In this document: one piece after another, positions 3,866-60,793 of the stretch
Layout of the letters: every line of letters starts with the position of its first letter
Position numbering within the stretch: position 1 is the first letter of the stretch
Origin: an uncultured Paracoccaceae bacterium
GTDB lineage: Bacteria; Pseudomonadota; Alphaproteobacteria; Rhodobacterales; Rhodobacteraceae
Direction: 5' to 3'
Assembly (NCBI GenBank): GCA_947492825.1
Contig: CANLNT010000001.1
Coordinates: 558,001 to 622,000, forward strand
Length of the DNA stretch: 64,000 bases
The notes under the pieces: generated by a model
Told to the model about the DNA's origin: nothing
The model's input: the letters and a program-made list of their open reading frames with translations, nothing else
The model's database searches: none
Position numbers and translations under genes: made by a program

Positions 3866-4335
3866 GTGACGCGCGGTTTGAAGACGGGGGCGAGGCCCCG
3901 CTGCGTCTGATTGCGCGGGATGCCGGTGACCTGCAAGTGGTCTCTGCCCTTGTGCAGGACGCTGTGTTTCCAGGGTCCGAGATGCAGTTTGTCGCGCGCG
4001 AGCGGCGCTTTGCGATCCTGCTGAACCGGTTCCGCTGGGAAGATGCTGCTGGGGCGACCCGTCGCAGGCGCGATTACGAGCGGGTGCAGGCGGTGCTGAT
4101 GATTAGCGATGTGCTGGGCGTGCGCAGCCAGGGTGTGCCGCGTGGTGACGCGGATACGGTACTGAGCCTTTTGTCGGTTGATTTCGAGGCGGGTGAAGAC
4201 GGTGCGGATGAGGTGGTGCTGACCTTGGCCGGTGACGGTGTGATTTCGGTCCGGGTTGAGGCGCTGGAGGTGATGCTGAAAGACGTCACCCGCCCCTATA
4301 TCGCCCCCTCCCGTCGCGCCCCTGACCACGATTGA
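3862..4335 (+). CDS. DUF2948 family protein
   Basis: The 157-residue cytoplasmic protein has the DUF2948 pattern: [21 protein letters not shown] at the start, then a basic [14 protein letters not shown] segment and [14 protein letters not shown]. The family is alphaproteobacterial and characteristically sits between murA and hisD, as here; its function is unknown. The start overlaps the murA stop by four bases (ATGA). No catalytic motif is visible. Confidence 0.9.
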
Positions 4336-4432
4336 CCTGATTGCGCGGCGTGCGCCGCACGACATGTTTTTGCGCGCGCCCGGTGGTGGTGTCGCGCGCA
4401 AGGGGCGGTTGGTGGTGTGGGTGTCACGGGCA

Positions 4433-4469
4433 GCGCCTCCGGCGGGGATATTTTTGGCCAGAAGAAGAA
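4433..4469. repeat. Rhodobacteraceae-type intergenic repeat element, one copy
   Basis: The sequence GCGCCTCCGGCGGGG followed by ATATTTTTGGCC and an AGAAGAAG purine tail matches, from memory, a short element that recurs between genes in many Rhodobacteraceae. A small hairpin (CGCC at 4434-4437, GGCG at 4441-4444) precedes a T-rich run, so it might act as a weak terminator for murA-DUF2948. It is the only copy I noticed here. Confidence 0.5.
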
Positions 4470-4533
4470 TGGACCGGGCCCGCATTGCGGCAGCCCGGCG
4501 GGCCTTGTATGAGGCGGTCAAAGGAGAGGGTTC

Positions 4534-5847
4534 ATGCCGCAGTTTCTGTCCACCGGGGATGCCAATTTTGAGGCGCAGTTTGGCGCATTGCTTGCCGCCA
4601 AGCGCGAGGACAGCCCGGATGTGGATGCGGTTGTGGCAGAAATCATTGCCGATGTGCGCGCCCGTGGGGATGCCGCCGTGCTGGAACTGACGGCGCGGTT
4701 CGACCGGGTTGAGATGAATGCCGCTGGCATGCGGTTTTCGGGGGCAGAGGTTGATGCGGCCTGTGCGGCAGTTGACCCCGCCGATCGGGAGGCGCTGGAA
4801 ATGGCAGCCGCCCGAATCCGCGCCTATCACGCCCGTCAGATGCCCGAAGATGCCATGTGGGACGATGAAGCCGGTGCGCGGCTTGGCTGGCGTTGGACGC
4901 CAGTATCGGCGGCGGGGCTCTATGTGCCGGGGGGGCTTGCCACCTATCCATCCTCAGTGCTGATGAATGCGATCCCGGCCAAGGTGGCGGGCGTTGGACG
5001 GTTGGCGATGGTTGTGCCAACGCCGGATGGGGTCGTGAACCCGCTGGTGCTGCTGGCGGCACGGATTTCCGGGGTGGACGAGATCTACCGCATTGGCGGC
5101 GCGCAGGCGGTGGCCGCGCTGGCCTATGGTACGCAGACCATTCCACCAGTCGACAAGATCACGGGCCCCGGCAATGCCTATGTGGCGGCTGCCAAGCGGC
5201 GGGTCTTTGGCAAGGTCGGCATTGATATGATCGCCGGCCCGTCAGAGATTCTGGTGATTGCCGACAGATACAATGATCCCGACTGGATCGCACTTGATCT
5301 ACTGAGCCAGGCCGAGCACGACGAAAGCGCGCAGTCCATCCTGATCACCGATGACGCAGGCTTTGGCCGGGCGGTGGCCGCAGCGGTCGATGTGCGGCTG
5401 GAAACGCTTGAGAGGCGCGCCATTGCGGGCGCCAGTTGGCGCGACTTTGGCGCGGTGATCACGGTGGCGGATATGGACGAGGCGGTGGCCCTGTCAGACC
5501 GGATCGCGCCTGAGCATCTGGAGCTTTGCACCGGTGACGCCGAAGCGCTGGCCAGTCGGATCACCCATGCAGGCGCCATCTTTATTGGCGGCTTTACGCC
5601 CGAGGCAATCGGTGACTACATTGGCGGTCCCAACCACGTGCTGCCCACGGCCCGGTCGGCGCGGTTTTCCAGCGGTTTGTCAGTGATGGATTTTGTCAAA
5701 CGCACCACCCTGTCGCAAATGACGCCCGAGGCGCTGGCCGCCATCGGCCCTGCTGCGGTGCGCTTGGCCAATTCTGAAAGCCTGCAGGCGCATGGGTTGT
5801 CGGTGCAGGCGCGGCTGGACCGCTTGAACAAGGGTCAGTCGACATGA
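4534..5847 (+). CDS. hisD: Histidinol dehydrogenase
   Basis: HisD carries out the last two steps of histidine synthesis, oxidising L-histidinol to L-histidine with NAD+ and zinc. The 437 residues are full length. The family signature GPGNAYVAAAKRRVFGKVGI continues into DMIAGPSEILVIAD, and PEHLEL carries the catalytic Glu-His pair. The ribosome site AAAGGAGAG lies eight bases before ATG 4534. The gene heads a tightly packed train that runs to the nitrilase at 8744. Confidence 0.97.
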   Translation: MPQFLSTGDANFEAQFGALLAAKREDSPDVDAVVAEIIADVRARGDAAVLELTARFDRVEMNAAGMRFSGAEVDAACAAVDPADREALEMAAARIRAYHARQMPEDAMWDDEAGARLGWRWTPVSAAGLYVPGGLATYPSSVLMNAIPAKVAGVGRLAMVVPTPDGVVNPLVLLAARISGVDEIYRIGGAQAVAALAYGTQTIPPVDKITGPGNAYVAAAKRRVFGKVGIDMIAGPSEILVIADRYNDPDWIALDLLSQAEHDESAQSILITDDAGFGRAVAAAVDVRLETLERRAIAGASWRDFGAVITVADMDEAVALSDRIAPEHLELCTGDAEALASRITHAGAIFIGGFTPEAIGDYIGGPNHVLPTARSARFSSGLSVMDFVKRTTLSQMTPEALAAIGPAAVRLANSESLQAHGLSVQARLDRLNKGQST

Positions 5848-46542: not shown

Positions 46543-47946
46543 TCAGGCGCTGGCGCGGGCCAGGTGCAGCGGGGCCAGTTGAACCGCAGCCAGTGCCTTG
46601 GGCCATGTGACAAGCAGCACGGCAGAGCCGGTGATCTGATGGGCGGCCAGCGCATCCACCAGTGTGGCCAGCGTGGCGGTCAGGTGCCGCGCGCCGGGTT
46701 TTGAGACATCCACGCAGATATCGACGGTGACATCGGGCGGAATGCCCTGTGTGATCCACTGATCCGCCAAGCGCCCCGCCTGCCGCGTTGCCATGTAAAG
46801 CGCCGTTGTGGTGCCGGGGCCGGACAGGCGCGTGGCCGCGGGCAGGGGATCATCAGCGCTGCCGGTGCCGGTGGTCAGGATCAATGTATCGGCCACGCCG
46901 CGTTCCGTCAGGCTGCGGGTCAGGCTGGCCCCGGCGGCGGATGCTGCCGTAACACCGGGCACGACCTCGATGGGGATGCCAGCGGCGCGGGCGGCGTCAA
47001 TCTCTTCGGTCGCGCGGCCAAAGATGCCCGGATCCCCCGATTTCAGGCGCACAACGCGCGCGCCCTTGCGGGCGGCGGCCACGATCATCTGGTTGATCCG
47101 GTCCTGCGGCCATTGATGCGCGCCCACATGTTTGCCCACAAACACCCGCTCTGCGTCGCGCCGCGCCAGTTCCAGCACCTCGGCGTCCACAAGCCGGTCG
47201 TAAAAGATCACGTCCGCCTCTTGCAGGCGTTCCACAGCGCGCAGGGTCAACAGATCGCGCGCGCCGGGGCCCGCACCCACCAGCGCGATGTGACCCATGT
47301 CGCTGGCCGTATCAGGCGCGCGCCTGGCCTTGATGGCGTCTTTGATCGCGCCCGCTGCGGCCCGTTCGGCCCCACGCGTCCAATCTGTGCGCGGCGCCCC
47401 TTTGAACACCCAGGCCCAAAACGCGCGGCGCTGGCCTTGCGGCACCCGGCGCGCCACGGCAGGGCGCAGCCGCCCGGCAAGCGCCGCTAGCCCACCCAGA
47501 TTTTGCGGCAAGCTGCGTTCCAGCTGCGTCTTGATCTGCCGGGTCAGCACCGGCGCAGTCCCTTCGCTGCCAATCGCCACCACAATCGGGTCCCGGTCTA
47601 CGATTGCGGGAGTTGTGATGTCACAAAGCGCGGGCTGATCGACCACATTGACCGGACAGCCTGCCGCCTTGGCAAGCGCATGGGCGGCTGCGTCAAATCC
47701 GGGGCAGCCGGTCCCGACAAAGACCATTGCGGCATCCGTAAACACCGATGCGTCGAGCGTCTTGACCTGCAGCGCGCGGCCCGCCGCGACCAGATCGGCC
47801 AATTCATCCTCGAGCGTTGCGGCCACAAGCACCAATTGCGCATCGGTCTTGAGCAGCAGCCGGGATTTCTGCGCGGCCTGTTCACCACCGCCGACGATCA
47901 CGACGCGGCGACCTGTCGTGCGGAAAAACATCGGAAATGACTTCAT
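46543..47946 (-). CDS. cysG: Siroheme synthase CysG (multifunctional)
   Basis: The 467-residue protein joins a precorrin-2 dehydrogenase/ferrochelatase domain (VVIVGGGEQAAQKSRLLLKT near residue 14) with a uroporphyrinogen-III methyltransferase domain (HIALVGAGPGARDLLTLRAV; VRLKSGDPGIFGRATEEI). It makes siroheme, the cofactor of the nitrite reductase in the same cluster. ATG 47946 has AAAGGAC upstream; a longer frame is unlike the family. Confidence 0.93.
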   Translation of the reverse strand: MKSFPMFFRTTGRRVVIVGGGEQAAQKSRLLLKTDAQLVLVAATLEDELADLVAAGRALQVKTLDASVFTDAAMVFVGTGCPGFDAAAHALAKAAGCPVNVVDQPALCDITTPAIVDRDPIVVAIGSEGTAPVLTRQIKTQLERSLPQNLGGLAALAGRLRPAVARRVPQGQRRAFWAWVFKGAPRTDWTRGAERAAAGAIKDAIKARRAPDTASDMGHIALVGAGPGARDLLTLRAVERLQEADVIFYDRLVDAEVLELARRDAERVFVGKHVGAHQWPQDRINQMIVAAARKGARVVRLKSGDPGIFGRATEEIDAARAAGIPIEVVPGVTAASAAGASLTRSLTERGVADTLILTTGTGSADDPLPAATRLSGPGTTTALYMATRQAGRLADQWITQGIPPDVTVDICVDVSKPGARHLTATLATLVDALAAHQITGSAVLLVTWPKALAAVQLAPLHLARASA

Positions 47947-47959
47947 CGCGGGGGTCCTT

Positions 47960-48907
47960 TCAGGCGGCCAAATGCGCGCAATGGGCATCCCAAAGCGCGC
48001 GGGCTGTTGCGTCGGGCCGAGCACATCCCACTGTGTTCAGTGCCATGGCGGCCGTGCCAGTGATTATCTCGGTCTGGAACGGGGTCAGGCGGGTCGGATT
48101 CCAGTTTTCCAGCCGCGCGGGGGCGGCATCCTGCAGCCGCGTCGTCAGCGGGGCCAAGGCGGGAAAACGCGCCTCCCACATTTGCCCGCCGCGCAGGCCA
48201 AACCCGGTGATCTCTTTGCCGGGGTGCCGCTCGAATTCGCCACCGCCACCTTTGATGATGGTGAGCGATTGCCAACCGCGCAATGCAGCAGCTTCGGCCT
48301 GTAACAGTCTGTAAGATGGGTGAAAAACGCCTTGCACACTGGTGGGCGCGGCACCGGGGTTCAGCATCCGGCAGACCGTGTTGATGCAAGACCGCAGCCC
48401 CAGCACATCGCGCAATTGCAACAGCCTGAACAGCGCAGGGTGAAACACCTCAAGCGGCAGATAGGCGATCCGGTCGCGGTCCAACAGGCGCGACAGGTCC
48501 TTCAGATTGTGTGCTGTGGCAATCCCTGCCGGGGCCAGTCCGGCGCGCACGGCCTTGTCCTGTCCGTTCCAGCCGTGCAACAGAACGCGGTGCCCCGCTG
48601 CCGCCACCAGTTTCGCCGACAGCAAAAACCACGGCGCACCGCGCGTGCGCCCGGCGGCATAGGACGGCCAGTCAAGGTCCACGGCGGGCAAGGCAGGCAA
48701 GGCGGCCTGTGCCGCACCAGACAGGCCCGCAATTTCAGCCGCTGTTTCCCCCTTCATCCGCAGCAGCATCAGCACGGCACCCACCGCCTCTGGTGCCGTT
48801 CCATCTGCCAGCATCAGGCGCATGGCATCCGCTGCCTCGTCTTGGGTTAGGGACCGCGACCGGCCCGGGCCACGCCCCAGCATGCGGACATGATCTGCCA
48901 GCGTCAT
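47960..48907 (-). CDS. Anthranilate phosphoribosyltransferase-like (TrpD2-type) protein
   Basis: The 315-residue protein resembles TrpD2/YbiB proteins of the phosphoribosyltransferase family 3 fold: helical N-terminal domain, then SAKLVAAAGHRVLLHGWNGQ, LGLRSCINTVCRMLNPGAAP and GWQSLTIIKGGGGEFERHPG. True TrpD motifs for anthranilate are weak, and such proteins bind DNA or unknown ligands. It overlaps nasA by four bases, so it is co-translated with nitrate reductase. Its place in nitrate assimilation is unclear. Confidence 0.78.
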   Translation of the reverse strand: MTLADHVRMLGRGPGRSRSLTQDEAADAMRLMLADGTAPEAVGAVLMLLRMKGETAAEIAGLSGAAQAALPALPAVDLDWPSYAAGRTRGAPWFLLSAKLVAAAGHRVLLHGWNGQDKAVRAGLAPAGIATAHNLKDLSRLLDRDRIAYLPLEVFHPALFRLLQLRDVLGLRSCINTVCRMLNPGAAPTSVQGVFHPSYRLLQAEAAALRGWQSLTIIKGGGGEFERHPGKEITGFGLRGGQMWEARFPALAPLTTRLQDAAPARLENWNPTRLTPFQTEIITGTAAMALNTVGCARPDATARALWDAHCAHLAA

Positions 48908-51534
48908 TCTGCGGCCTCGCGCACCATGACCCGCTGCAACAGCTCGGCCAGTTCGGGCTTGCAGGACCCGCAGTTGGTTCCCGCGCTCAGGGCTGCGCCG
49001 ATCTGCGCAACGCTCAGCAACCCTTCGGTCTCGATTGCGGTGACGATCGTGTTCACACCGACGCCGAAACAGGCACACAGCACCGGGCCGGGCTGCGGGA
49101 CATCGGCTGCGGGACGGCCCAACAGCGCATCATCGCCCGCCGTCCCCGGCATTGCGGCCAGATAGTCGCGCATCACCGCCACTGGGGCGCTAGCGGCGTA
49201 CAGCGCCCCGATTAGCAGGCCGTCCTTGTGCGCCACAATCCGTGCGCTGCCGCGCCGACCGTCAATGATCGAACTGATATCGGCGTCTTTGGCGTCAAAC
49301 AGGCGGCGGGCCTCTGCCTCCCAATCGGTGACGTCGTTTTCGCCTGCAAGCTCTGCCCGGTAGCCCTGACCGGTCCGCGCCAGCGCCCAATAGCTGCTGT
49401 TCAGCCGCATCGGGTCGCGGGCCACGGCAAACCCGTACCACGCCGCATCAAAGCGGTGCAGTGCCACCACGCTGGCCTTGCTTTCCGGCTGGCCAGAGAT
49501 CGGGTCGACCGCGCCAGCAACCAGCGCGCAAACGCGCGCGGCGGCAGAGGTTTCACCGGTCCAGTGCATCGGCGCAAAGACCTGTCCGGGCTGGACCGCA
49601 TCGGTGATCCGGGCGCGTAGGATCGCGCGGCCATGGGTGCTATCGACCTGCACCAGATCGGCGGCTGCGATGCCAAGATGGCGGGCGTCCTCGGGGTGCA
49701 GATCCACAAAGGGCTCGGACAGATGCGCCGACAGCCGGGGGCTTAGCCCGGTGCGCGTCATGGTGTGCCACTGGTCGCGCACGCGGCCTGTGTTGAGCCG
49801 GAAAGGATAGCGCGGACCAGTGCGTGCCGCCGGGGGCTGCCAGGTGACCGGCAAGAGCCGCGCCTTGCCGTCGGCGTGATAAAACTGTCCATCCGCAAAG
49901 AACCGCCCGCCCATGCGCGCTGCGGTCACCGGCCAGCGTTGCGGGGGCAGGGCGGCATAGCCCGCGTCGGTAATGTGCGCCAATCCAGAGATGTCAAAGT
50001 CGCGCCCCAGCCCGCCTGCAATGCCCGATAGGGCGGCGTGCTCTCGGAAAATCTCGGCCGGGTTTGCGTAATCAAATGCCGCACCAAACCCCATGCGCTG
50101 GCCGACCTCGGCCAGAATGGCCCAATCGGGGCGCGCGCTGCCGGGTGCGGGCAACACGCGGCGCTGGCGGCTGATGGTGCGGTCGGAATTGGTAACGGTG
50201 CCGTCCTTTTCGGCCCAAGCGGTGGCGGGCAGCAGCACGTCGGCAAGCCGCGCGGTATCGGTGGCCGCCGTGATGTCGCTGACCACGGTAAAGGGGCAGG
50301 CGGCGATGGCGTCGCGCACCGCGTCTGCGTCTGGCATCGATACGGCGGGGTTGGTGTGAATAACCCACAGCGCTTTGATCCGGCCGTCGCCGACTGCGCG
50401 GAACATATCCACGGCGCGCAGGCCCGGCGCTGAGGGCATCGCCGGGGAGTTCCAGAACGCTTGCACCGCGTGGCGGTGGTCGGCGTTTTCCAGATCGAGG
50501 TGACACGCCAGCATATTGGCCAACCCGCCGACCTCTCGCCCGCCCATCGCGTTGGGCTGGCCGGTGACAGAGAAAGGGCCCATGCCGGGCTTGCCAATGC
50601 GGCCTGTCGCCAGATGGCAATTCAGGATCGCGTTGACCTTGTCACTGCCCGATGTCGATTGGTTCACGCCCTGGCTGTAGATCGTCACGACCTTGTCAGT
50701 GCTGGCCCAAAGGGCGCAGAAGGCGTCAATCTGGGCCTCGGTCAGGCCGGTAGGGGCTGTGGCATCGGCGCGCGCGGATGCCACGGCGGCATCCAGTCCG
50801 GTGGTGTGGGCCTGAAATTCCGGGTCGATCTTTCCGCCCGCGTCCAAAGCCACCAGCAGCCGGTTGAACAGGGCTACATCCGCGCCGGGCGCAATGGCGA
50901 GATGCATATCCGCGCTGTCGCAACTGGCCGTGCGGCGCGGGTCGATGACGACGATCTTGGTGCCCCGCTTGGCGCGCGCAGCCAACAGCCGCTGGTGCAG
51001 CACCGGGTGGCACCACGCAAGGTTTGATCCGACCAGCACGACCAGATCAGCGGCATCAATGTCTTCATAGGTGCCGGGCACCGTGTCGCTGCCAAAGGCG
51101 CGTTTATGACCCGCCACCGATGAGGCCATGCACAACCGCGAGTTCGTGTCGATGTTGGCCGACCCGATGAAACCCTTCATCAGCTTGTTGGCGACATAGT
51201 AATCTTCGGTCAGCAACTGGCCCGAGACGTAGAAGGCCACGCTGTCGGGTCCATGCGCTGCAATGGTCTGGCTGAAGCGGTCAGCGACAGTTTGCAGCGC
51301 GTGGTCCCACGCGGTTGGTGTGCCGCCCACCTGTGGGGACAACAGGCGCTGATCCAGCCCGACCGTTTCACCCAAGGCGGTGCCTTTGGAACACAGCCGC
51401 CCCTTATTGGCGGGATGATCTGGGTCACCCTGCACGTCCAGCCCGCCTTGCCCGTCCGGGCGCAGCAACACACCGCAGCCAACGCCGCAATAGGGGCAGG
51501 TCGACCGCACCTGCGGCAGGGCTGTGCCGTCCAT
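48904..51534 (-). CDS. nasA: Assimilatory nitrate reductase catalytic subunit
   Basis: The 876-residue molybdopterin enzyme reduces nitrate to nitrite. The N-terminal [4Fe-4S] site is CPYCGVGCGVLLRP with a fourth Cys in LCSKG near residue 48. The Mo-bis-MGD domains follow (HPVLHQRLLAARAKRGTKIV; TGRIGKPGMGPFSVTGQPNA). The C-terminus has a BFD-like [2Fe-2S] domain (CACFGVGVNTIVTAIETEGL, NCGSCKPELAELL), as in Klebsiella-type NasA. The FAD partner NasB is not in the window. Confidence 0.95.
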   Translation of the reverse strand: MDGTALPQVRSTCPYCGVGCGVLLRPDGQGGLDVQGDPDHPANKGRLCSKGTALGETVGLDQRLLSPQVGGTPTAWDHALQTVADRFSQTIAAHGPDSVAFYVSGQLLTEDYYVANKLMKGFIGSANIDTNSRLCMASSVAGHKRAFGSDTVPGTYEDIDAADLVVLVGSNLAWCHPVLHQRLLAARAKRGTKIVVIDPRRTASCDSADMHLAIAPGADVALFNRLLVALDAGGKIDPEFQAHTTGLDAAVASARADATAPTGLTEAQIDAFCALWASTDKVVTIYSQGVNQSTSGSDKVNAILNCHLATGRIGKPGMGPFSVTGQPNAMGGREVGGLANMLACHLDLENADHRHAVQAFWNSPAMPSAPGLRAVDMFRAVGDGRIKALWVIHTNPAVSMPDADAVRDAIAACPFTVVSDITAATDTARLADVLLPATAWAEKDGTVTNSDRTISRQRRVLPAPGSARPDWAILAEVGQRMGFGAAFDYANPAEIFREHAALSGIAGGLGRDFDISGLAHITDAGYAALPPQRWPVTAARMGGRFFADGQFYHADGKARLLPVTWQPPAARTGPRYPFRLNTGRVRDQWHTMTRTGLSPRLSAHLSEPFVDLHPEDARHLGIAAADLVQVDSTHGRAILRARITDAVQPGQVFAPMHWTGETSAAARVCALVAGAVDPISGQPESKASVVALHRFDAAWYGFAVARDPMRLNSSYWALARTGQGYRAELAGENDVTDWEAEARRLFDAKDADISSIIDGRRGSARIVAHKDGLLIGALYAASAPVAVMRDYLAAMPGTAGDDALLGRPAADVPQPGPVLCACFGVGVNTIVTAIETEGLLSVAQIGAALSAGTNCGSCKPELAELLQRVMVREAAE

Positions 51535-51863
51535 CAGGCGGCGCTCCGGTTGGAAAGCTTGTCGGCATCAATCAGAATGCGGCCTGCGTTGACTTCGACC
51601 GGGTAGGTTTCAATCGCGCCATCCTCGCCCTGCGCCTGCCCGGTATTGAGGTCAAAGACCCAATTGTGCAGCGGGCAGGTCACCGACTGGCCGTGCACGA
51701 TGCCCTCGGCCAAGGGGCCGCCCTTGTGCGGGCAGGTGTTGGAGACGGCAAAAACCTCTGCCGGACCGGTGCGAAAAATGGCGACACAGCCCAGTGCGGT
51801 CTTGATCTTGCGCGCCCCACGCAGGGGGATGTCGTCAACGGCACCAATATCAATCCAGCTCAT
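51534..51863 (-). CDS. nirD: Nitrite reductase (NADH) small subunit
   Basis: The 109-residue Rieske-type protein carries CPHKGGPLAEG and CPLHNWVFDL, so the [2Fe-2S] ligands (Cys-His and Cys-His) are intact. Many NirD proteins have lost this cluster. It assists NirB in nitrite reduction to ammonium. ATG 51863 overlaps nirB by four bases. Confidence 0.93.
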   Translation of the reverse strand: MSWIDIGAVDDIPLRGARKIKTALGCVAIFRTGPAEVFAVSNTCPHKGGPLAEGIVHGQSVTCPLHNWVFDLNTGQAQGEDGAIETYPVEVNAGRILIDADKLSNRSAA

Positions 51864-54292
51864 TCCGCGGCCTCCAATGTCAAATCGGCAAGGGGTTGAT
51901 AGGTTGCGGCCCGGGTTTGAACGTGGTCGTCCCACGGATCGCGCCGGTAGATGGACTGCGACAGTTCAAACGCCGCGATCAGGCGGGCGCGTTCATCCGG
52001 GTCGGCGATCTTGTCCTGCACCCAATCCAGCCCCACCTTGGCGACCCATTTGTAGGGCCGGTCGAGGTATTTGGCGTTCTCGCGGTAAAGCTGAACAAAG
52101 GCGACGGTCACATCAATTGCCTCTTGTTCAGTTGGCACATCACACAGACGCTCGGTTTCTTTCAGATCCATGCCCGCGGCCCCGGCGACACCCACCTGAT
52201 AGCCACTGTCGACGCAAATAATCCCCACGTCCTTGCAGGTGGCCTCGGCGCAATTGCGCGGGCAGCCCGACACGGCCAGCTTGACCTTGTGCGGCGTCCA
52301 TGACCCCCACAGCGCCTGTTCCAGCTTGATGCCCAGCCCGGTGCTGTCTTGCGTGCCAAAGCGGCAGTGATCGGTGCCAACGCAGGTTTTGACCGTGCGC
52401 AGACCCTTGGCATAGGCGTGGCCCGACACCAGCCCGGCGCGGTTCAGATCGGACCAGATGGCGGGCAAATCCTCACCCTTCACGCCCAGCAGATCTATCC
52501 GCTGGCCGCCGGTAACCTTGACGGTGGGCACGTTGTATTTGTCCGCCGCATCGGCAATCGCGCGCAATTCGGACGGGTTGGTGATCCCGCCCCACATGCG
52601 CGGCACGACGCTGAACGTCCCATCCTTCTGAATGTTGGCGTGCTTGCGTTCATTCACGAACCGGCTTTGCGGATCGTCCTGATATTCAAGCGGCCAATCG
52701 GCCAGCAGATAGAAATTCACCGCCGGACGGCAGGTGGGACAGCCGTTGCGGGTCTTCCAGCCCAGCTCTTGCCAGACAGCATCCTGGCTTTTGAGTTCCT
52801 GGCTCTTGATCAGCCGCCGCACGTCTTCGTGGGTTAGATCGCAACAGCCACAGATCGGCTGCGCCGTCGGCATCTGAAAGGCGTCGCCCAGCGTGACCTG
52901 CAAGACCTGTTCGACCAGCCCGGTGCAGGTGCCGCATGACGCGCTGGCCTTGGTGGTCGCGCGCACGGCGGCCAGATCGGTGGCACCATTTGCGATGGCG
53001 TCGGTGATGGTGGATTTGCAAATGCCGTTGCAGCCGCAAATTTCCGCCTCAGGCGGCAATGCTGCAACGGCTGAGAGCGGGTCCGCAGTATCGCCCCCCT
53101 GAAAGGCCGGACCGAAGATCAGCGTCTCGCGCATGTCATCGACCTCGGTGCCGTCCTTAATCAGCTGAAAGAACCAGTTGCCGTCGGCGGTATCGCCGTA
53201 CATTACCGCGCCGATCAGCCGGTCATCCGCGATCACAAGACGTTTGTAGATGCCCTTGGCCGGGTCGCGCAGCACGATGTCCTCCCGGCCTTCGTCATCG
53301 GCGAAATCGCCCGCGCTGAACAGATCACAGCCGGTCACCTTCAGCTTGGTCGCGGTGTCCTTGACTACAAAGGCATCCGCATCACCCATCAGCGTGCGCG
53401 CCAGCACCTTGGCCTGATCGTAAAGCGGTGCAACAAGCCCAAAAAGGTTGCCATCAAACTCGATACATTCGCCCACCGCAAAGACATCCGGGTCCGAAGT
53501 CTGCATCTGCGCCGTCACTTCAATGCCGCGCGCCACATCAAGGCCCGCGTCTGTTGCTAGCCGGGTTTCGGGGCGGATGCCCACGGCCATGACCACCAGA
53601 TCAGCGGGCAGGGTCTCGTCGTTCTCCAGCAGGACCGCCTCGGCGCGGCCGTCGCCGATGATCGCCTTGGTCGAGGCCTGGGTGCGGATCGTGATCCCGC
53701 GCTTTTCCAGATCGCGGCGCAAAAGGTAGCCCGCAGCCTCATCCAATTGCCGTTCCATCAGGTGACCCATCAGGTGCACCACGGTCACGTCCATGCCGCG
53801 CTCTGCCAGTCCGGCGGCGGCTTCCAACCCCAGCAACCCGCCGCCGATCACCACAGCCGTGCCGCCTTTGGCAGAAGCGTCGATCATCGCGTTGGTGTCG
53901 TCGAGGTCGCGGTATGTAATGACGCCGGGCAAGTCCTTGCCGGGCACCGGAATGATAAACGGGGCAGAGCCTGTGGCGATGATCAGCTTGTCATAGGGCA
54001 CATGGCCATTCTGGCCCTCGACCACCTTCATCTCGCGGTCGATCCGCACCACGTGTTCGCCGAACCTACAGGTCACGCCGTGGGTGGCGTACCAGTCATC
54101 ATCATGGGTGACGATGTCGGCATAGGTCTTTTCGCCCGACAACACCGGCGACAGCATGATGCGGTTGTAGTTGCCGCGTGCCTCGGCGTTGAAAAGCGTG
54201 ATGTCGTAGGCGTCGGGGGCCTGTTCGACCAGATGCTCGATGACCCGGCCAGAGGCCATGCCCGCACCGATAATGACCAATCTTTGCTTCAT
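51860..54292 (-). CDS. nirB: Nitrite reductase (NADH) large subunit
   Basis: The 810-residue enzyme reduces nitrite to ammonium with NADH. It has an FAD/NAD domain (LVIIGAGMASGRVIEHLVEQ; TAVVIGGGLLGLEAAAGLAE), two BFD-type [2Fe-2S] motifs (CGCNGICKSTITDAIANG, CGCCDLTHEDVRRLI), a ferredoxin-like half, and the siroheme/[4Fe-4S] region (TCVGTDHCRFGTQDS, SGCPRNCAEATCKDVG). ATG 54292 has GGAG at the right distance; GTG 54301 is an alternative that overlaps the nrtC stop. Confidence 0.95.
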   Translation of the reverse strand: MKQRLVIIGAGMASGRVIEHLVEQAPDAYDITLFNAEARGNYNRIMLSPVLSGEKTYADIVTHDDDWYATHGVTCRFGEHVVRIDREMKVVEGQNGHVPYDKLIIATGSAPFIIPVPGKDLPGVITYRDLDDTNAMIDASAKGGTAVVIGGGLLGLEAAAGLAERGMDVTVVHLMGHLMERQLDEAAGYLLRRDLEKRGITIRTQASTKAIIGDGRAEAVLLENDETLPADLVVMAVGIRPETRLATDAGLDVARGIEVTAQMQTSDPDVFAVGECIEFDGNLFGLVAPLYDQAKVLARTLMGDADAFVVKDTATKLKVTGCDLFSAGDFADDEGREDIVLRDPAKGIYKRLVIADDRLIGAVMYGDTADGNWFFQLIKDGTEVDDMRETLIFGPAFQGGDTADPLSAVAALPPEAEICGCNGICKSTITDAIANGATDLAAVRATTKASASCGTCTGLVEQVLQVTLGDAFQMPTAQPICGCCDLTHEDVRRLIKSQELKSQDAVWQELGWKTRNGCPTCRPAVNFYLLADWPLEYQDDPQSRFVNERKHANIQKDGTFSVVPRMWGGITNPSELRAIADAADKYNVPTVKVTGGQRIDLLGVKGEDLPAIWSDLNRAGLVSGHAYAKGLRTVKTCVGTDHCRFGTQDSTGLGIKLEQALWGSWTPHKVKLAVSGCPRNCAEATCKDVGIICVDSGYQVGVAGAAGMDLKETERLCDVPTEQEAIDVTVAFVQLYRENAKYLDRPYKWVAKVGLDWVQDKIADPDERARLIAAFELSQSIYRRDPWDDHVQTRAATYQPLADLTLEAAE

Positions 54293-54297
54293 GTTGT

Positions 54298-55962
54298 TCA
54301 CTCCGCTGCGATGCTTGTGGGTTTCGGTTTCGGTTGCGCGCCGTGCTCGTATTCCTCAAGGAAATCAAGCACCTCTTGCCGGTAGTTGTAGTAGTCTGGA
54401 TGCGCCAGAAGCGCCTTGCGGGTGCGTGGGCGCGGTAGATCGACCTTTGTGATCTTGCCGATGGTGGCCTGCGGGCCGTTGGTCATCATCACCACGCGGT
54501 CGGCCAGCAAGATCGCCTCATCCACATCATGAGTCACACAGATTGCGGTCACCTTGGTGCGGGACCAGACCTCCATCAGGACCTCTTGCAGCTCCCACCG
54601 GGTCAGGCTGTCGAGCATTCCGAAGGGTTCGTCCAGCAACAGCAGTTTCGGCGACAGCGCAAAAGCGCGCGCGATGCCGACGCGCTGCTGCATCCCGTTG
54701 GACAGATCCAGCGCGGGCTTGTGCATGGCGTCAGCAAGGCCGACCCGTTCAAGGTAGTATTCCACCACATCCTGCCGCTCTGCCTGACTGGCGCGGGGGT
54801 AGACCTTGTCGACCCCGATGGCCACGTTTTCGCGCGCGGTCAGCCAGGGGAAGAGGTTGGGCGACTGGAACACAACCGCCCGTTCGGGGTCTGCCCCTTC
54901 AACGTGGCGGCCATCGAGCTTGATCGCCCCCTTGCTGATCGGGTTCAGTCCTGCGGCCATGGTCAGCACGGTGGATTTGCCGCAGCCCGAGTGTCCGATC
55001 AGGCTGATGAATTCGCCGCGATCCACCTTGAGGTCAAAATCCTCGACCACGGTCAGCGGGCCCTTGGGGGTGGGGTAGACCTTGTGCAACTGGCTGAAAT
55101 CCAGAAACCTGTTGTCGATCAGCCCGTCTTGCGCGTCTTTGACCGCTGCCGGGATGCCGTGGATCGGTGTGACGTCGGGCAGCAGGCGGGTGCCTTCGAC
55201 CTTGGCCTCGATACCCACATCCATCAGGTATTTTGTCACCTCCGCGCGCAACTGCTTGAAGGTTTCGTTTGTGTTCATTTCCATCCGGTCGCGCGGGCGT
55301 GGGATGGTCACGTTGAATTCTTCGCCCAAGGTCCCATCAGGGTTCAGCGCAATGATCCGGTCGGCCAGAATGATCGCTTCGTCGACGTCATTGGTGATCA
55401 GCACGCAGGTTTTCTTGTCAGCCTCCCAGATTCCCTCGATCTCGTCGGCCAGATTGGCGCGGGTCAGCGCATCAAGCGCCGACAGCGGCTCATCCAGCAG
55501 CAGCATCTCGGGGTTCATCGCCAGCGCGCGGGCCACGTTGACCCGCTGGCGCATCCCGCCCGACAGTTCCGCCGGGCGACGGCTGGCGGCGTGCGACAGG
55601 CCCACCATATCGACGAAATGCGCGACTTTTTCGGCCTTTTCCGCCTTGGGCAGACCGGGATAGACCGTGTCCACAGCCAAGGCCACATTGCCGGTCACCG
55701 TCAGCCAAGGCATCAGTGAATAGCTTTGAAAGATCACACCGCGTTCGGGGCTTGGTTCCTTGATCGGCTTGCCTTTGAAGATGACGTTGCCCTTTGTCGG
55801 GGCCTCAAGCCCCGCCATCAGGTTGATCAGTGTGGTCTTGCCGGTCCCGGAAAAGCCCAGCAGCACCAGAAACTCGCCTTCTTGCACATCCAGGTTGATG
55901 TCGCGCAGAACCGGCGTGTCGCCATAGCTCTTGCAGACATTTTCAAACGTCAGAATACCCAT
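54298..55962 (-). CDS. nrtC: Nitrate ABC transporter, fused double ATP-binding protein
   Basis: At 554 residues it holds two ABC domains. Domain 1 has Walker A GFSGTGKTT, signature LSGGMRQR, Walker B MLLLDEP, and an H-loop reading TNDVDEA, where Asn replaces His. Domain 2 has GHSGCGKST, LSNGMQQR, KLLLLDEPFG and a normal THDVDEA. Thus one composite ATP site looks degenerate. It would power NrtB for nitrate/nitrite uptake. A linker (MEMNTNETFKQLRAEVTKYL) joins the domains. Confidence 0.9.
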   Translation of the reverse strand: MGILTFENVCKSYGDTPVLRDINLDVQEGEFLVLLGFSGTGKTTLINLMAGLEAPTKGNVIFKGKPIKEPSPERGVIFQSYSLMPWLTVTGNVALAVDTVYPGLPKAEKAEKVAHFVDMVGLSHAASRRPAELSGGMRQRVNVARALAMNPEMLLLDEPLSALDALTRANLADEIEGIWEADKKTCVLITNDVDEAIILADRIIALNPDGTLGEEFNVTIPRPRDRMEMNTNETFKQLRAEVTKYLMDVGIEAKVEGTRLLPDVTPIHGIPAAVKDAQDGLIDNRFLDFSQLHKVYPTPKGPLTVVEDFDLKVDRGEFISLIGHSGCGKSTVLTMAAGLNPISKGAIKLDGRHVEGADPERAVVFQSPNLFPWLTARENVAIGVDKVYPRASQAERQDVVEYYLERVGLADAMHKPALDLSNGMQQRVGIARAFALSPKLLLLDEPFGMLDSLTRWELQEVLMEVWSRTKVTAICVTHDVDEAILLADRVVMMTNGPQATIGKITKVDLPRPRTRKALLAHPDYYNYRQEVLDFLEEYEHGAQPKPKPTSIAAE

Positions 55963-55967
55963 GTCGA

Positions 55968-57044
55968 TTACCGGTTATTCGTGAAGGTGAAAAGCGACTG
56001 CAGCGCATACATCACGCGGTCCAGCATGAAGCCGATCACGCCGATGGTCAGCACCGCCACCATGATCTTGGCCAACGAGCTTGAGGACCCGTTCTGGAAT
56101 TCGTCCCAGACGAATTTACCAAGGCCGGGGTTCTGCGCCAGCATCTCGGCGGCGATCAACACCATCCAGCCCACACCCAGCGACAGGCGCAACCCGGTAA
56201 AGATCAGCGGCAGGGCAGAGGGCAGGACCAGCTTGGTGATTTTGGTCCATGTGTTCATCTTCAAGACCTTGGAGACATTGACCAGATCCTTGTCGATGCT
56301 GCTGACACCCAGAGCGGTGTTAATCAGCGTTGGCCAGAGAGAGCAGAGCGTCACCGTGATGGCCGAGGTCAGAAAGCTTTTGGCGAACCAGCCGTCAGAG
56401 TTTGTGTAGACCGCCGAGACCACCATTGTGACAATTGGCAGCCAAGCCAGCGGTGAGACGGGCTTGAAGATCTGGATGATCGGGTTCAGCGCGGCGTTTG
56501 CAGTGGGCGACAGGCCCGCGGCAATGCCCAAAGGGATCGCAACCGCGCTGGCGATCAGAAAGCCAAAGAAGACTGTCTGGATCGAGGTCCAAATCTGGCT
56601 GTAGTAACTTGGCGCGCCGGTATAGGCGCGTTCGACGGGCTCTTTGCCCTGCTCAGCCCGCTTTTCATTCAGCGTGGCCAGTTGTGTTTCAAACTTTGTC
56701 CGGCTTTCCGCCTTGGCCTGCGCGTCTTCGTGCAGGGTGACCGCTTCGGCCCAGACCTGTCCCGGTCCGGGGATCGCCCCAAGTGAGGTTTGCACCGTGG
56801 GGGCCAGCGTGGCCCAAAGGGTCAGGAACGCGGCAATCGCCAACAAAGGCACCCCTAGCAAGCGCCAGATATCGCCCATCTGCGCGCGCGGGTTGTCGCC
56901 CGCTGCGGCTTTTAGGATCGGTGTCAGCCAGGCCAGGCCCAACACCTGAAACCATTTGTCGGCGGTGTTGATCCGGGTGAAAAGCCGGGCGCGGCGCGCC
57001 TCTTTGGCGGCCTCTGCGGCGAAATTGGGGTCTGCGGTGCTCAT
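55968..57044 (-). CDS. nrtB: Nitrate ABC transporter permease
   Basis: The 358-residue inner-membrane protein has a long N-terminal cytoplasmic and linker region with Gln/Glu-rich segments (KFETQLATLNEKRAEQGKEP), which is longer than in NrtB of cyanobacteria. A core of about six helices carries the coupling motif (AAEMLAQNPGLGKFVWDEFQ) near residue 310. It forms the channel for the NrtC ATPase. ATG 57044 has AGGAGA upstream. It is separated from nrtA by a strong hairpin. Confidence 0.92.
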   Translation of the reverse strand: MSTADPNFAAEAAKEARRARLFTRINTADKWFQVLGLAWLTPILKAAAGDNPRAQMGDIWRLLGVPLLAIAAFLTLWATLAPTVQTSLGAIPGPGQVWAEAVTLHEDAQAKAESRTKFETQLATLNEKRAEQGKEPVERAYTGAPSYYSQIWTSIQTVFFGFLIASAVAIPLGIAAGLSPTANAALNPIIQIFKPVSPLAWLPIVTMVVSAVYTNSDGWFAKSFLTSAITVTLCSLWPTLINTALGVSSIDKDLVNVSKVLKMNTWTKITKLVLPSALPLIFTGLRLSLGVGWMVLIAAEMLAQNPGLGKFVWDEFQNGSSSSLAKIMVAVLTIGVIGFMLDRVMYALQSLFTFTNNR

Positions 57045-57069
57045 GTGCCTGTCTCCTGGGGGATGGGTC

Positions 57070-57106: not shown

Positions 57107-58474
57107 TTAGCCCTGAACTTCGTCGCCAACGACGATCTGCGCGCCCTTCAAGCCAATCGGCAGGCTTTCAAGATAGGCGTTGGGGGACCGGCCATCGTAG
57201 GGGATGCCATCAATAATGTCGGCGGCAGGTGTCGGCGCTTTGAAGCCGTCACTGTCCCATGGAAAGTCTTCGGCATTCGCCAGACCTTCATCAACCAGCG
57301 ACTTGGCCGCATCCAGATAGATGTCCGGGCGGTAAACGCGGGCCGCGACGTCCTTGTACCACTCGTCTGTCTGCGGCTCTGCGATCTGACCCCAGCGGCG
57401 CATCTGGGTCAGGTACCAGATCGCGTCAGAGTAATAGGGATAGGTCGCATTGTAGCGGAAGAAGACGTTGAAATCGGGGATGTCGCGCTTGTCGCCCTTC
57501 TCGAACTCGAAAAAGCCGGTCATCGAGTTTGCGATCACGTCGTAATCGGCGCCGACATATTCCGCCCGGCTCAGGATCTCGACCGCCTCGGGGCGGTTGG
57601 CGTTGTCGTTTTCATCCAGCCACATCGCGGCCCGGATCAGGGCGCGGACCACCGCCTTGGTGGTGTTGGGGTTGGCCTCTGCGAATTCCTCTGTGATGCC
57701 GAACACCTTTTCGGGGTTGTTCTTCCACAGCTGGTAGTCGGTGATCACCGGCACACCGATACCCTTGAACACCGCCTGCTGGTTCCACGGTTCACCCACG
57801 CAGTAGCCGTGGATCGTGCCTGCATCCAAGGTGGCGGGCATTTGCGGCGGCGGCGTCACCGACAGGAAAACGTCCGCACCGATCTGGCCAGAGATATTTT
57901 CGGGGCTGTAGTAGCCGGGGCTGATCCCGCCGGCTGCCAGCCAATAGCGCAGTTCGTAGTTATGGGTCGACACCGGGAAGACCATGCCCATGTTGAATGG
58001 CTCGCCACGGGCGTTGAAGTCTTCGATCACGGGCACCAGTGCCTCGGCGCTAATCGGATGCTGCGGGCGGCCATCGTCCATGCTGGGGATATGCGGGCGC
58101 ATCATGTCCCAGACTTCGTTGGATACGGTGATCCCGTTTCCATTCAGGTCCATCGAGAACGGCGTGACAATCGCCGCTTCGGTGCCATAGCCGATGGTCG
58201 CGGCCAGCGGTTGGCCGGCCAGCATATGCGCGCCGTCCAGCTGCCCGTCGATTACACCGTCCAGCAGTACCTTCCAGTTGGCCTGCGCTTCGAGCGTTAC
58301 AAACAGACCTTCGTCCAGAAAGTAACCCTGCTCATAAGCGACCGCCAGCGGTGCCATATCCGTCAGCTTGATAAAGCCAAACGTCAGCTCGTCCTTTTCA
58401 AGATCCAACAGCTCGGCCATCGCCGGACTGGCAAGGGCGGTGCTGGCCGCAAGAGCAAAGATAAGTTTCTTCAT
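57107..58474 (-). CDS. nrtA: Nitrate/nitrite ABC transporter substrate-binding protein
   Basis: The 455-residue periplasmic binding protein starts with a signal peptide ([19 protein letters not shown], cleavage near residue 20). The CmpA/NrtA domain follows ([40 protein letters not shown]). The ligand pocket motifs [20 protein letters not shown] and EPWNQQAVF are present. It delivers nitrate to NrtBC and is the first structural gene behind the regulatory leader. Confidence 0.93.
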
Positions 58475-58529
58475 TGTTATTCCTTTCCAAAACGCCCGGC
58501 GGGGGAGGAGAACCGCCAAAGGCCAAAAC

Positions 58530-58582
58530 AAAAAAGGCCGACCACTGACCGCCGAAGACTTCGGCAGAAAGTGAGCGACCTT
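58530..58582 (-). terminator. Leader terminator in front of nrtA, exclusive with P2
   Basis: On the minus strand, 13-base arms (58582-58570 and 58546-58534) pair with one mismatch and two wobbles and run straight into six T (58535-58530). A nested hairpin (TGCCGAA/TTCGGCG) fills the loop. The 5' arm uses the loop and 3' stem of hairpin P2, so terminator and P2 cannot coexist. Confidence 0.75.
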
Positions 58583-58587
58583 GCTCA
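58572..58587 (-). promoter_or_regulatory. ANTAR target hairpin P2 of the nrtA leader
   Basis: TGAGC-AAGGTC-GCTCA: perfect five-base stem with hexaloop AAGGTC, A at position 1 and G at position 4, the ANTAR-binding consensus. It overlaps the terminator arm. Confidence 0.8.
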
Positions 58588-58616
58588 GACATTCCCATGC
58601 GAGGGAGGTGCAGGGC

Positions 58617-58636
58617 GATCCACCCCGTTGTGGACC
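58617..58636 (-). promoter_or_regulatory. ANTAR target hairpin P1 of the nrtA leader
   Basis: GGTCCAC-AACGGG-GTGGATC: seven-pair stem (one wobble) with hexaloop AACGGG, again A1 and G4. P1 and P2 are 29 bases apart. I see no clear promoter boxes between nasS and P1. Confidence 0.8.
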
Positions 58637-58725
58637 CTTGAACCGATCATGCGGCGGTGCAGCATTGGCGAAAACCGCAAACCCGGCGATCAGCGGTGCC
58701 GGGTTGGGTGATCGGGGCGAGCTGC

Positions 58726-59913
58726 CTAGAAATTCATCACTTCGTCCGCAGTTGGATCAAAAATCCGGCCATCAAAGAACTGATCTGGCAGCAGCGTCAG
58801 CGCGCCACCTGCCGATGCAACCGGTGTGGCGCGTCGAATCGCGCCTTCGACCTTTTGGGATGCGCCCGGCAGATCAATGCCGTCAGCCCCCAGATGCATC
58901 CGGTGCAAATCCGCGCGAAAGACCTGTGCTGCGGCGCCGAGGTCGGTATCCCGCGGCACCCCATGCCGTGCGGCCAGTTGCCCGGCGATCCATTGCGCCT
59001 GACTGCGCCATGGAAATGTCGCGGCCCCGTGGTGAAAGGCGACAAAACGGTCCACCTGGCGAAGGTCGCCGCGCGCGGTGACCGTCAGATGGCCCGACAG
59101 CGCCCGGTCAATCAATTCCGCAGGGACATCGAGATAGGCTTTGCGCGACAGGATTTCGCCCGCCATCGCCCGCGCCTCTGGCTGGCCCAGCCAGCGCCCG
59201 GCCCGCCAAGTGGCGCGCATCAGTCGGCCCAGCAGGTCTGGCTCTGTTTCGGCCCAGCCGGTGCGCACGGCCAGCACCTTTTCAGGGGCAAACTGCCAGA
59301 TCGCACTGCCCGGCAGCACCAACGCGCCCGCACCCTGTTCAACCGCGACCGATCCCCATGGTTCACCCACGCAAAAGGCGTCCACGTCGCCTGCGGCCAA
59401 TGCGCTGGCCATCAGGGGCGGCGGCACAGTGCGGATTTCGATACCGCGTGCGCCAAGGGCGGTGGCATTGGCCCAATAGCCCAGCAGGGCCACATGCATC
59501 GAAAACGGAAACGGGACACCAAAGACGATGGGCCGGTCACAGACCCGCGCCAAAGCCTCTGCCGCGGCAACGGGATCGGTGAAGTCAAAGGTATAGCCAT
59601 CGGCGCGCAGCCGGTTTTCCAGCGGTTTGCCCACGCCAACCACATTGCCATTGACCGACAGGACCGACACCGCCGACAGCGCGGTGGCAACGCCGCCAAG
59701 CCCCATCGCCATCGCCACCGGCACGGGCGACAACATATGTGCGGCATCCACCCGGCCAAAGGCCAGCATGTCGCGGACCGATGACCATGACGGTGCGGCG
59801 ATCAAATCAAGGGCGATGCCCTCGGCGGCGGCAAATCCCATTTCCTGAGCGATGATCAGCGGGGCCGCATCAACCAGCGGTACATAGGCGGTGGGCACGG
59901 TGACAAGCTTCAT
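58726..59913 (-). CDS. nasS: NasS-type nitrate sensor protein
   Basis: The 395-residue protein is a CmpA/NrtA-like binding protein without a signal peptide (starts [20 protein letters not shown]). It therefore stays in the cytoplasm, as NasS does. The pocket motifs [20 protein letters not shown] and [10 protein letters not shown] parallel NrtA. In known systems NasS holds NasT when nitrate is absent and frees it when nitrate binds. It overlaps nasT by four bases. Confidence 0.9.
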
Positions 59914-60494
59914 CCCAGCAGCCCCGATGCGGTCACCAAGGCCTCGGCCACATCTGCCACGCGGCGGCCCTGATCCATCGCAGTTTTGCGCAGCAGGGCA
60001 TAGGCCGCGTCTTCATCAATGCCGCGCGCCTTCATCAGTACGCCCTTGGCGCGGTCAATGACTTTGCGTTCCTGCAAGGCACGGCGCGTCTCGGCCAACT
60101 CATCGCGCATCTGGCGCACCATCGCAAAACGCGCAATTGCCGTGTCGATCACCGGTTTCAGCCGTTCCGGCGACAGCCCGTTGACCACATAAGCCGACAC
60201 GCCCGCCTCAATCGCGGCCTGCGCCAGCCCGCCTGCCGCCTCAGAGACGAACATCGCCACCGGCCGGTCCAGCGGGCCAGAGGCGAGGGTCAGTTCCTCC
60301 ATCATGTCGCGGGTCGGGTTGTCGATGTCGATCAGCACGATATCGGGCGCATGTTGAGCGATCTTGCGCGCCAGCCCGCTTGAGCCGCCGATCACATGCA
60401 CCTCGCAGGGGCTGGCGTCTTTCAGCGCATCCACAATGGCAATCGCGCGGTTGCGGTCTTCCTCGACAACAACAATGGTCAGTATCTTTGACAT
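59910..60494 (-). CDS. nasT: NasT-type ANTAR antiterminator
   Basis: The 194-residue protein has an N-terminal receiver-like domain (ILTIVVVEEDRNRAIAIVDA; IVLIDIDNPTRD) and a C-terminal ANTAR RNA-binding domain (LQERKVIDRAKGVLMKARGI, DEDAAYALLRKTAMDQGRRV). It binds paired hexaloop hairpins and blocks terminators. ATG 60494 is chosen; an upstream extension has no receiver pattern. It is the first gene of the nitrate cluster. Confidence 0.92.
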   Translation of the reverse strand: MSKILTIVVVEEDRNRAIAIVDALKDASPCEVHVIGGSSGLARKIAQHAPDIVLIDIDNPTRDMMEELTLASGPLDRPVAMFVSEAAGGLAQAAIEAGVSAYVVNGLSPERLKPVIDTAIARFAMVRQMRDELAETRRALQERKVIDRAKGVLMKARGIDEDAAYALLRKTAMDQGRRVADVAEALVTASGLLG

Positions 60495-60793
60495 GAAAAG
60501 GGGGATGCAACAGCGCCACACGGGGCGCAACGCGCAGGCGTGCCGCGGCGCAGCAAAGGACAAAGCGTTGAATGATTGCCTCAAAATTCAGCGTGCCCGC
60601 CTAACGAACCGGCGCCGCGCGCACCGCCAAGGGGTTCAGTTCCATGCCGGGCTTGGCATTTTTCGTCTATATGGCCGCTGCCAAAGTCATGGATTCACGC
60701 CTTGCTTTGCAGCCGATTCCACTCAACACTTCAACGATATTTGGGTTTTTGGCCTCTTCAGAGGCATTTGCTGTGATTTTGGAGGGTTATTGA
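60495..60793. other. Gene-free control region between nasT and a divergent gene
   Basis: This 299-base stretch between the divergent starts of nasT and the gene at 60794 presumably holds both promoters. I see no gene or clear ANTAR hairpin pair in it. A GGAGG ribosome site belongs to the right-hand gene. Confidence 0.4.

Follow-up and report, generated by a model that had tools for sequence, protein, structure and literature searches.

A predicted NasT-controlled leader upstream of nrtA with two widely spaced ANTAR hairpins and a third hairpin between them

The 251-nt leader between nasS and nrtA on the minus strand of the window (the whole 64,000-nt stretch of DNA that was analysed) is probably a NasT-controlled transcription attenuator, in which the antiterminator hairpin P2 is partnered by a distal hairpin, P1, and a middle hairpin, M, occupies the slot where P1 canonically lies. 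We put the probability of this reading at roughly 80%. Judged by its sequence, the leader is a NasT-type ANTAR antitermination leader, to which NasT is predicted to bind. NasT is already known to act by antitermination on nas leaders; what appears new here is the spacing of the two hairpins and the presence of the middle one.

Genetic context of the leader

The leader is part of a series of minus-strand genes in the order nasT, nasS, 251-nt gap, nrtA, nrtB, nrtC, nirB, nirD, nasA and cysG, located as follows.

59910..60500, minus strand: nasT, with a receiver-like domain and an ANTAR RNA-binding domain (Pfam ANTAR, 4e-22)
58726..59913, minus strand: nasS, NrtA-like (NMT1_2, 2.5e-59)
57107..58474, minus strand: nrtA, the first gene downstream of the leader
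46543..57047, minus strand: nrtB, nrtC (two ABC domains), nirB, nirD, nasA and cysG, the remainder of the putative operon

The initial annotation stated that NasT and NasS are encoded next to the leader, and both genes were found immediately upstream of it. The nasT product aligns with EutV (6wsh, 4e-14) and NasR (4akk, 4e-11), and no other ANTAR match was found in the genome. NasS is thought to keep NasT inactive without nitrate, as described in the available text of PMC3795266. The locus therefore holds what defines a NasS-NasT regulon, namely nasT, nasS and a nitrate/nitrite assimilation target. The operon had been given as nrtABC-nirBD-nasA-cysG, and this order held when it was assigned by position and family matches, but the name nasA is contextual: the product in that position is a molybdopterin oxidoreductase that scored below the cut-off for each of the 25 NCBIfam models shown. 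The genes from nrtA to cysG presumably form a single transcript.

Two ANTAR hairpins and an overlapping terminator

The two A1/G4 hexaloop hairpins that had been proposed for the nrtA leader, with the loops AACGGG and AAGGTC, were both located on the minus strand, together with a hairpin between them and a terminator downstream.

58617..58636, minus strand: P1, the distal hairpin (GGTCCAC-AACGGG-GTGGATC), with an A1/G4 hexaloop at 58629-58624 closed by a C-G pair
58593..58606, minus strand: M, the middle hairpin (TCCC-TCGCAT-GGGA), with neither A1 nor G4 in its loop
58572..58587, minus strand: P2, the antiterminator hairpin (TGAGC-AAGGTC-GCTCA), with an A1/G4 hexaloop at 58582-58577
58534..58582, minus strand: stem of the intrinsic terminator; the P2 loop and the P2 3′ stem make up the beginning of its 5′ arm
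58530..58535, minus strand: U-run of the terminator, six T, read from the sequence
58650..58664, minus strand: imperfect dyad (TGCTGC-ACC-GCCGCA) just upstream of P1, of uncertain membership in the switch

P2 and the terminator had been predicted to exclude each other, and folding of the stretch from P2 to the U-run agreed with this. The 5′ arm of the terminator takes up 6 of the 6 P2 loop bases and 4 of the 5 bases of the P2 3′ stem, so that both structures draw on the same strand. With the terminator, the stretch has an energy of −28.4 kcal/mol; with P2 forced, the value is −19.0 kcal/mol. The U-run ends 55 nt upstream of the nrtA start codon.

The 116-nt piece covering the hairpins and the terminator (58525-58640) was more stable than all but one of 200 dinucleotide shuffles (z −3.05). 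The P1-P2 piece alone was no more stable than its shuffles (z −0.35; 61/200 equally good), and the case for P1 and P2 therefore rests on conservation and not on stability. A scan of 57900-59200 gave two terminator-like sites, both within the terminator described above, which is not above the number seen in shuffles (mean 1.4). No sigma-70-type promoter was found by pattern scan of the same stretch. The leader matched no Rfam family at gathering level; at E up to 10 there were four sub-threshold matches, the best being to ar14 (18.3 bits versus a gathering value of 58.8).

Conservation among homologous leaders

To follow the leader through relatives, genome contigs were searched with NasT, and 80 of 87 loci, mostly from Rhodobacterales, were retained. 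In 76 of these nrtA lies 3′ of nasS, which gives 77 leaders with the window; the remaining loci (L004, L006, L078 and L080) were left out as having no nrtA in the DNA examined. Locus L006 (Marivita geojedonensis) encodes a close NasT relative (match 4001-4582), and in the 4 kb on either side of it tblastn, with E up to 1e-10, detected neither nasS nor nrtA. All leaders were analysed as a fixed 300-nt stretch.

The P2 pattern with a stem of 4 bp or more was present in 76/77 leaders (200 shuffles: mean 0.07, maximum 2), the exception being L038 with the loop GAGGCC. This figure is a presence count, because the pattern used to locate P2 demands A1 and G4. When the best hexaloop hairpin of the P2 stretch was picked by its stem alone, it carried A1/G4 in only 49 of the 77, the pick in the other leaders being mostly the terminator top or M. 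For the distal hairpin, the best hexaloop hairpin 36–80 nt upstream, chosen by structure alone, had A1/G4 in 69/77 leaders, compared with a mean of 5.1 and a maximum of 11 in 100 shuffles. A strict distal C-A1..G4..-G hairpin was found in 75/77 (shuffle mean 3.2, maximum 8), that is in all but L042 and L052, and under a looser stem rule every leader (77/77) had a distal A1/G4 hairpin. An early P1-locating script misassigned P1 in L035, L042 and L052.

Covariation across homologous leaders had been suggested as a check, and for this we aligned 72 of the 77 leaders, excluding L028, L050 and L051 (near-duplicates by sight) and L043 and L067 (long spacers). The rows were selected independently of P1. 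In P1, all 72 rows have the same A1, G4 and C-G closing pair, and the stem below them varies freely and stays paired. The C-G closing pair of P2 is likewise seen in 72/72 rows, but the search pattern required it. P1 covaries strongly: 87.6% of cells are paired and the covariation score is 0.399, values reached by 0/500 shuffles (means 74.5% and 0.172) in statistics that ignore relatedness. When the structure was slid along the alignment, at most 47% of cells were paired. Two weaker measures were the number of pairs with a double change (11 versus 8.3 in shuffles, reached by 5/500) and the number of further pair types (40 versus 35.9, reached by 13/500). RNAalifold, given the alignment alone, predicted P1 and P2 and no other helix, M being absent from the consensus.

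The initial annotation had made its reading depend on homologous leaders keeping two A1/G4 hexaloops and a terminator arm that overlaps P2. Both hexaloops are kept, and the minimum-energy fold of the stretch from P2 to the U-run is a terminator that includes the P2 loop and 3′ stem in 75/77 leaders. In the two exceptions, L024 and L028, no U-run directly follows the terminator arm. P2 itself formed in none of the 77 folds, and forcing it cost a median of 9.9 kcal/mol. Part of P2 thus has two roles: bases that act as an ANTAR loop in one state belong to the terminator arm in the other. Loop position 3 of P2 varies together with its partner in the 3′ arm of the terminator and stays paired with it, as A-U in 39 leaders, G-C in 35, G-U in 2 and U-A in 1.

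A dyad of the class CTGC-N3/4-GCxG was also observed upstream of P1 in 48/77 leaders (200 shuffles: mean 3.6, maximum 10), mostly 31–35 or 85–86 nt upstream of the P1 loop. It resembles the site bound by the polyhydroxybutyrate regulator PhaR and may point to a link between carbon storage and nitrate uptake.

Spacing and the middle hairpin

The leader had been described as following the established ANTAR target pattern. This is true of the two A1/G4 hexaloops, but the description overlooked both the spacing and the intervening hairpin. P1 and P2 of the window are separated by a linker of 29 nt, longer than the short linker typical of ANTAR dual-hexaloop leaders, and their loops are 47 nt apart. 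The linker measured 24–37 nt in 54 of the 58 measurable leaders (window included). Over all 77 leaders the loop distance had a median of 50 nt and fell between 46 and 53 nt in 69.

According to the available text of the respective papers, the linkers of eut leaders measure 5–12 nt and a linker of 14 nt drastically lowered induction (PMC3369931), a 20-nt insertion eliminated antitermination by EutV (PMC8934654), and curated actinobacterial ANTAR RNAs were limited to linkers of 2–25 nt (PMC8164766). If NasT followed the same rules as EutV, a leader with a 29-nt linker would therefore not be expected to work. The search definition in PMC3369931, in the part available, calls the linker only “variable”, and the short linker is thus a functional and not a defining feature.

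In the window M lies in the canonical P1 slot and ends 5 nt before the P2 stem. An M score of at least 7 was reached in 72/77 leaders (200 shuffles: mean 26.9, maximum 35). The M of the window scores just at this threshold (7), which about a third of shuffles reach, and M covaries little across the alignment. Its loop is an A1/G4 hexaloop in 6/77 leaders and a heptaloop with A1/G4 in 28/77; 43/77, the window among them, have neither, one of these 43 being without any M call. The loop AATGACA in CCC/GGG, seen in M of the clade, closely resembles the adjacent hairpin of leader L168, with the loop AATGAC in CCC/GGG. Comparison of these sequences suggests that M is most likely a decayed P1 surviving as a structured spacer.

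Co-occurrence with NasT and further targets

A model of the leader matched 48 of 149 genomes of the family (E ≤ 0.001), and NasT was found in 60 of the 149 (E ≤ 1e-30). The matches fell in 48/60 genomes with NasT and in 0/89 without it, in a set of genomes some of which may be near the leaders used for training; 12 genomes with NasT had no match at E 0.001. A Sulfitobacter plasmid leader from outside the model training (L212) scored 61.1 bits.

In 3 of the 48 matched genomes a second leader of the same layout precedes genes of the CysG family (siroheme synthase):

L244, 316-391, plus strand: second leader before a CysG-family gene
L245, 283-359, plus strand: second leader before a CysG-family gene
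L246, 3952-3877, minus strand: second leader before a CysG-family gene

Siroheme is the cofactor of NirB, and leaders in these positions therefore fit the nitrate-assimilation target. They suggest that the NasT regulon spans more than one operon. In the genome of the window the model gave no convincing further target beyond the leader itself, the next match having an E of 0.48. A 12.5-bit match at 47010-47089 lies within the cysG frame and was taken as chance.

Leaders outside the family of the window

NasT was found in 42/289 genomes of the class and in 92/299 genomes of the phylum, two lists that overlap. Run over the class, model R1 matched only 7/289 genomes. As R1 is tuned to one family, outside leaders were sought with custom hairpin-terminator scripts. 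Sixty regions were selected from NasT-positive genomes, excluding the family of the window; they contained 143 gene starts and yielded 37 candidate leaders, of which 28 passed filters on terminator arm, T content and distance. The conservation of P2 in this set is no evidence, because the scripts demand a C-A1..G4-G P2.

The partner of P2 in these 28 leaders from other Pseudomonadota varies in position: 10 leaders have only a distal partner, 7 have only an adjacent one, 5 have the two together and 6 have neither, a tally in which L207 counts as “neither” owing to a misassigned P2, though another scan gives it both partners. A distal A1/G4 hairpin was thus present in 15/28 leaders (500 shuffles: mean 0.63, maximum 4) and an adjacent one in 12/28 (500 shuffles: mean 0.31, maximum 3). 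A middle hairpin was found in 8 of the 10 leaders with only a distal partner (null mean 4.2; 8 reached by 5/500 shuffles). The loop spacing in the clade of the window is about twice that of the adjacent class (50 versus 18–27 nt).

These observations incline us, by a narrow measure, to the view that NasT leaders share a three-hairpin plan in which P2 can be partnered by the adjacent hairpin, by the distal hairpin or by both. The clade of the window would use the distal hairpin and keep the old P1 as a structured spacer. Since the partner of P2 could then be distal, tight spacing of the EutV type would not be a general ANTAR rule.

In L155, L161, L206 and other outside leaders, a sigma54-like promoter directly precedes the first ANTAR hairpin. 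Counted without a shuffle control, 10 of the 15 outside leaders that have a distal hairpin also have a sigma54-like site. In 9 of these 10, transcription is predicted to begin upstream of that hairpin; in the exception, L198, the distal hairpin overlaps the sigma54-like site and its call is probably due to chance. Within the clade of the window such a site was found in only 4/77 leaders. For this reason no sigma54 promoter is proposed there, and the clade seems to have changed its promoter type relative to the outside leaders.

Proposed mechanism and alternatives

Work on related systems, as far as the available text of these papers goes, provides the steps that the sequence of the leader leaves out. 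In Paracoccus denitrificans, NasT binds the nasA leader RNA, nitrate or nitrite dissolves the NasS-NasT complex, and free NasT forms an oligomer whose size broadly agrees with a hexamer (PMC3795266). By analogy with the studies in Paracoccus, Bradyrhizobium and Klebsiella (PMC3795266, PMC5424462, PMC6759348, PMC7496416), we infer that NasT binds the leader of the window and that read-through depends on nitrate. By default, the nascent RNA would fold into the strong terminator (58582-58530) and transcription would stop before nrtA. Nitrate or nitrite bound by NasS would free NasT, as in P. denitrificans, and NasT may then load on P1 as P1 emerges. Some 50 nt later it would hold P2 until RNA polymerase has cleared the U-run; as the fold shows P2 and the terminator competing for one strand, holding P2 would permit read-through. 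M could act as a structured spacer that keeps P1 and P2 near each other, or an oligomeric NasT could span the distance between them.

NasT might also contact all three hairpins, through successive recruitment or as an oligomer, and M only weakly. A1/G4 hairpins are both distal and adjacent in 5 of the 28 outside leaders, one of them (L198) doubtful. Leader L214 of Rhodobacter sp. CZR27 has three A1/G4 hexaloops by eye, the third on a 3-bp stem, and the oligomeric state reported for free NasT (PMC3795266) would suit such contacts. We regard this arrangement as doubtful for the clade of the window, in which the majority of M hairpins, that of the window included, have no A1/G4 loop of six or seven bases.

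It is less probable still that M and P2 form the working ANTAR pair at normal short spacing, with the distal A1/G4 hairpin as an accessory. The 5 nt between M and the P2 stem lie inside the eut linker range, an A1/G4 hairpin occupies the place of M in 12/28 outside leaders, and the 6 hexaloops and 28 heptaloops of M described above could be read in the same way. Against this stand the M loop of the window, TCGCAT, which has neither A1 nor G4, and the 43/77 leaders in which M has no such loop, whereas the distal A1/G4 hairpin is present in 75/77 leaders by the strict rule and in 77/77 by the looser one.

It is very unlikely that NasT acts chiefly on how the nrtA message is translated or on how stable it is: a translational layer has been proposed for the P. 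denitrificans nas genes in the available text of PMC5424462, but in the window P2 overlaps a terminator whose U-run stops 55 nt short of the nrtA start codon. It is scarcely credible that the leader is simply a constitutive attenuator, or a nasTS terminator independent of NasT, for although the terminator alone is strong and would reduce read-through, P1 keeps its A1, G4 and C-G closing pair unchanged above a freely changing, covarying stem, and the leader co-occurs with NasT (48/60 versus 0/89 genomes).

We therefore retain the reading of the leader as a NasT-controlled attenuator in which P1, and not M, is the partner of P2.

Comparison with known systems

The closest known systems, within the available text on them, are the NasT/NasS leaders, among them those of Paracoccus denitrificans nasA and Bradyrhizobium nosR, which share the nasTS-nitrate target, leader hairpins and a proposed antitermination. 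In the nasA leader of P. denitrificans HAMBI_2443 (L211), the A1/G4 loops are 25 nt apart and no T-run is seen, whereas the leader of the window has loops 47 nt apart, M, and a U-run terminator. The published P. denitrificans mutants consequently do not map directly onto the layout of the window. A mapping of the published HI/HII hairpins onto the leader of the window was likewise set aside, as the L211 layout differs and the start codon of that paper is uncertain. The P. denitrificans leader (5879-5946 of L211) has a further strong hairpin; since no T-run was found, its termination step may differ.

The leader of nasF in Klebsiella oxytoca has the same A1/G4 loops, C-G closing pair and nitrate control, the C-G pair closing the loop being known from NasR SELEX, as given in the available part of PMC7496416. 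NasR is a one-component NIT-ANTAR sensor, whereas the window encodes NasS-NasT. The actinobacterial ANTAR RNAs, in the text available of PMC8164766, have the same dual hexaloop with A1/G4 at the shorter curated linkers cited above.

The wide-spaced layout with M was not found in the ANTAR and NasT literature searched, as far as the available text extends, and the supplementary tables of PMC3369931 may list such leaders. Searches with a capped linker length would, as the layout suggests, miss nitrate-assimilation targets in this group.

The eut leaders of Enterococcus faecalis, bound by EutV, likewise have two A1/G4 hexaloops, and there too the second one overlaps the terminator, but their linker is 5–12 nt in the available text (PMC3369931, PMC8934654) compared with 29 nt in the window. 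The EutV-RNA structure led to a model of successive binding, in which P1 is the recruitment hairpin and spacing is strictly limited, in the text available of PMC8934654. By analogy, this model would fit the NasT leader except for its spacing limit. The strict EutV limit becomes directly testable with the leaders described here, whose conserved layout calls into question the spacing rule for ANTAR targets that was derived from EutV.
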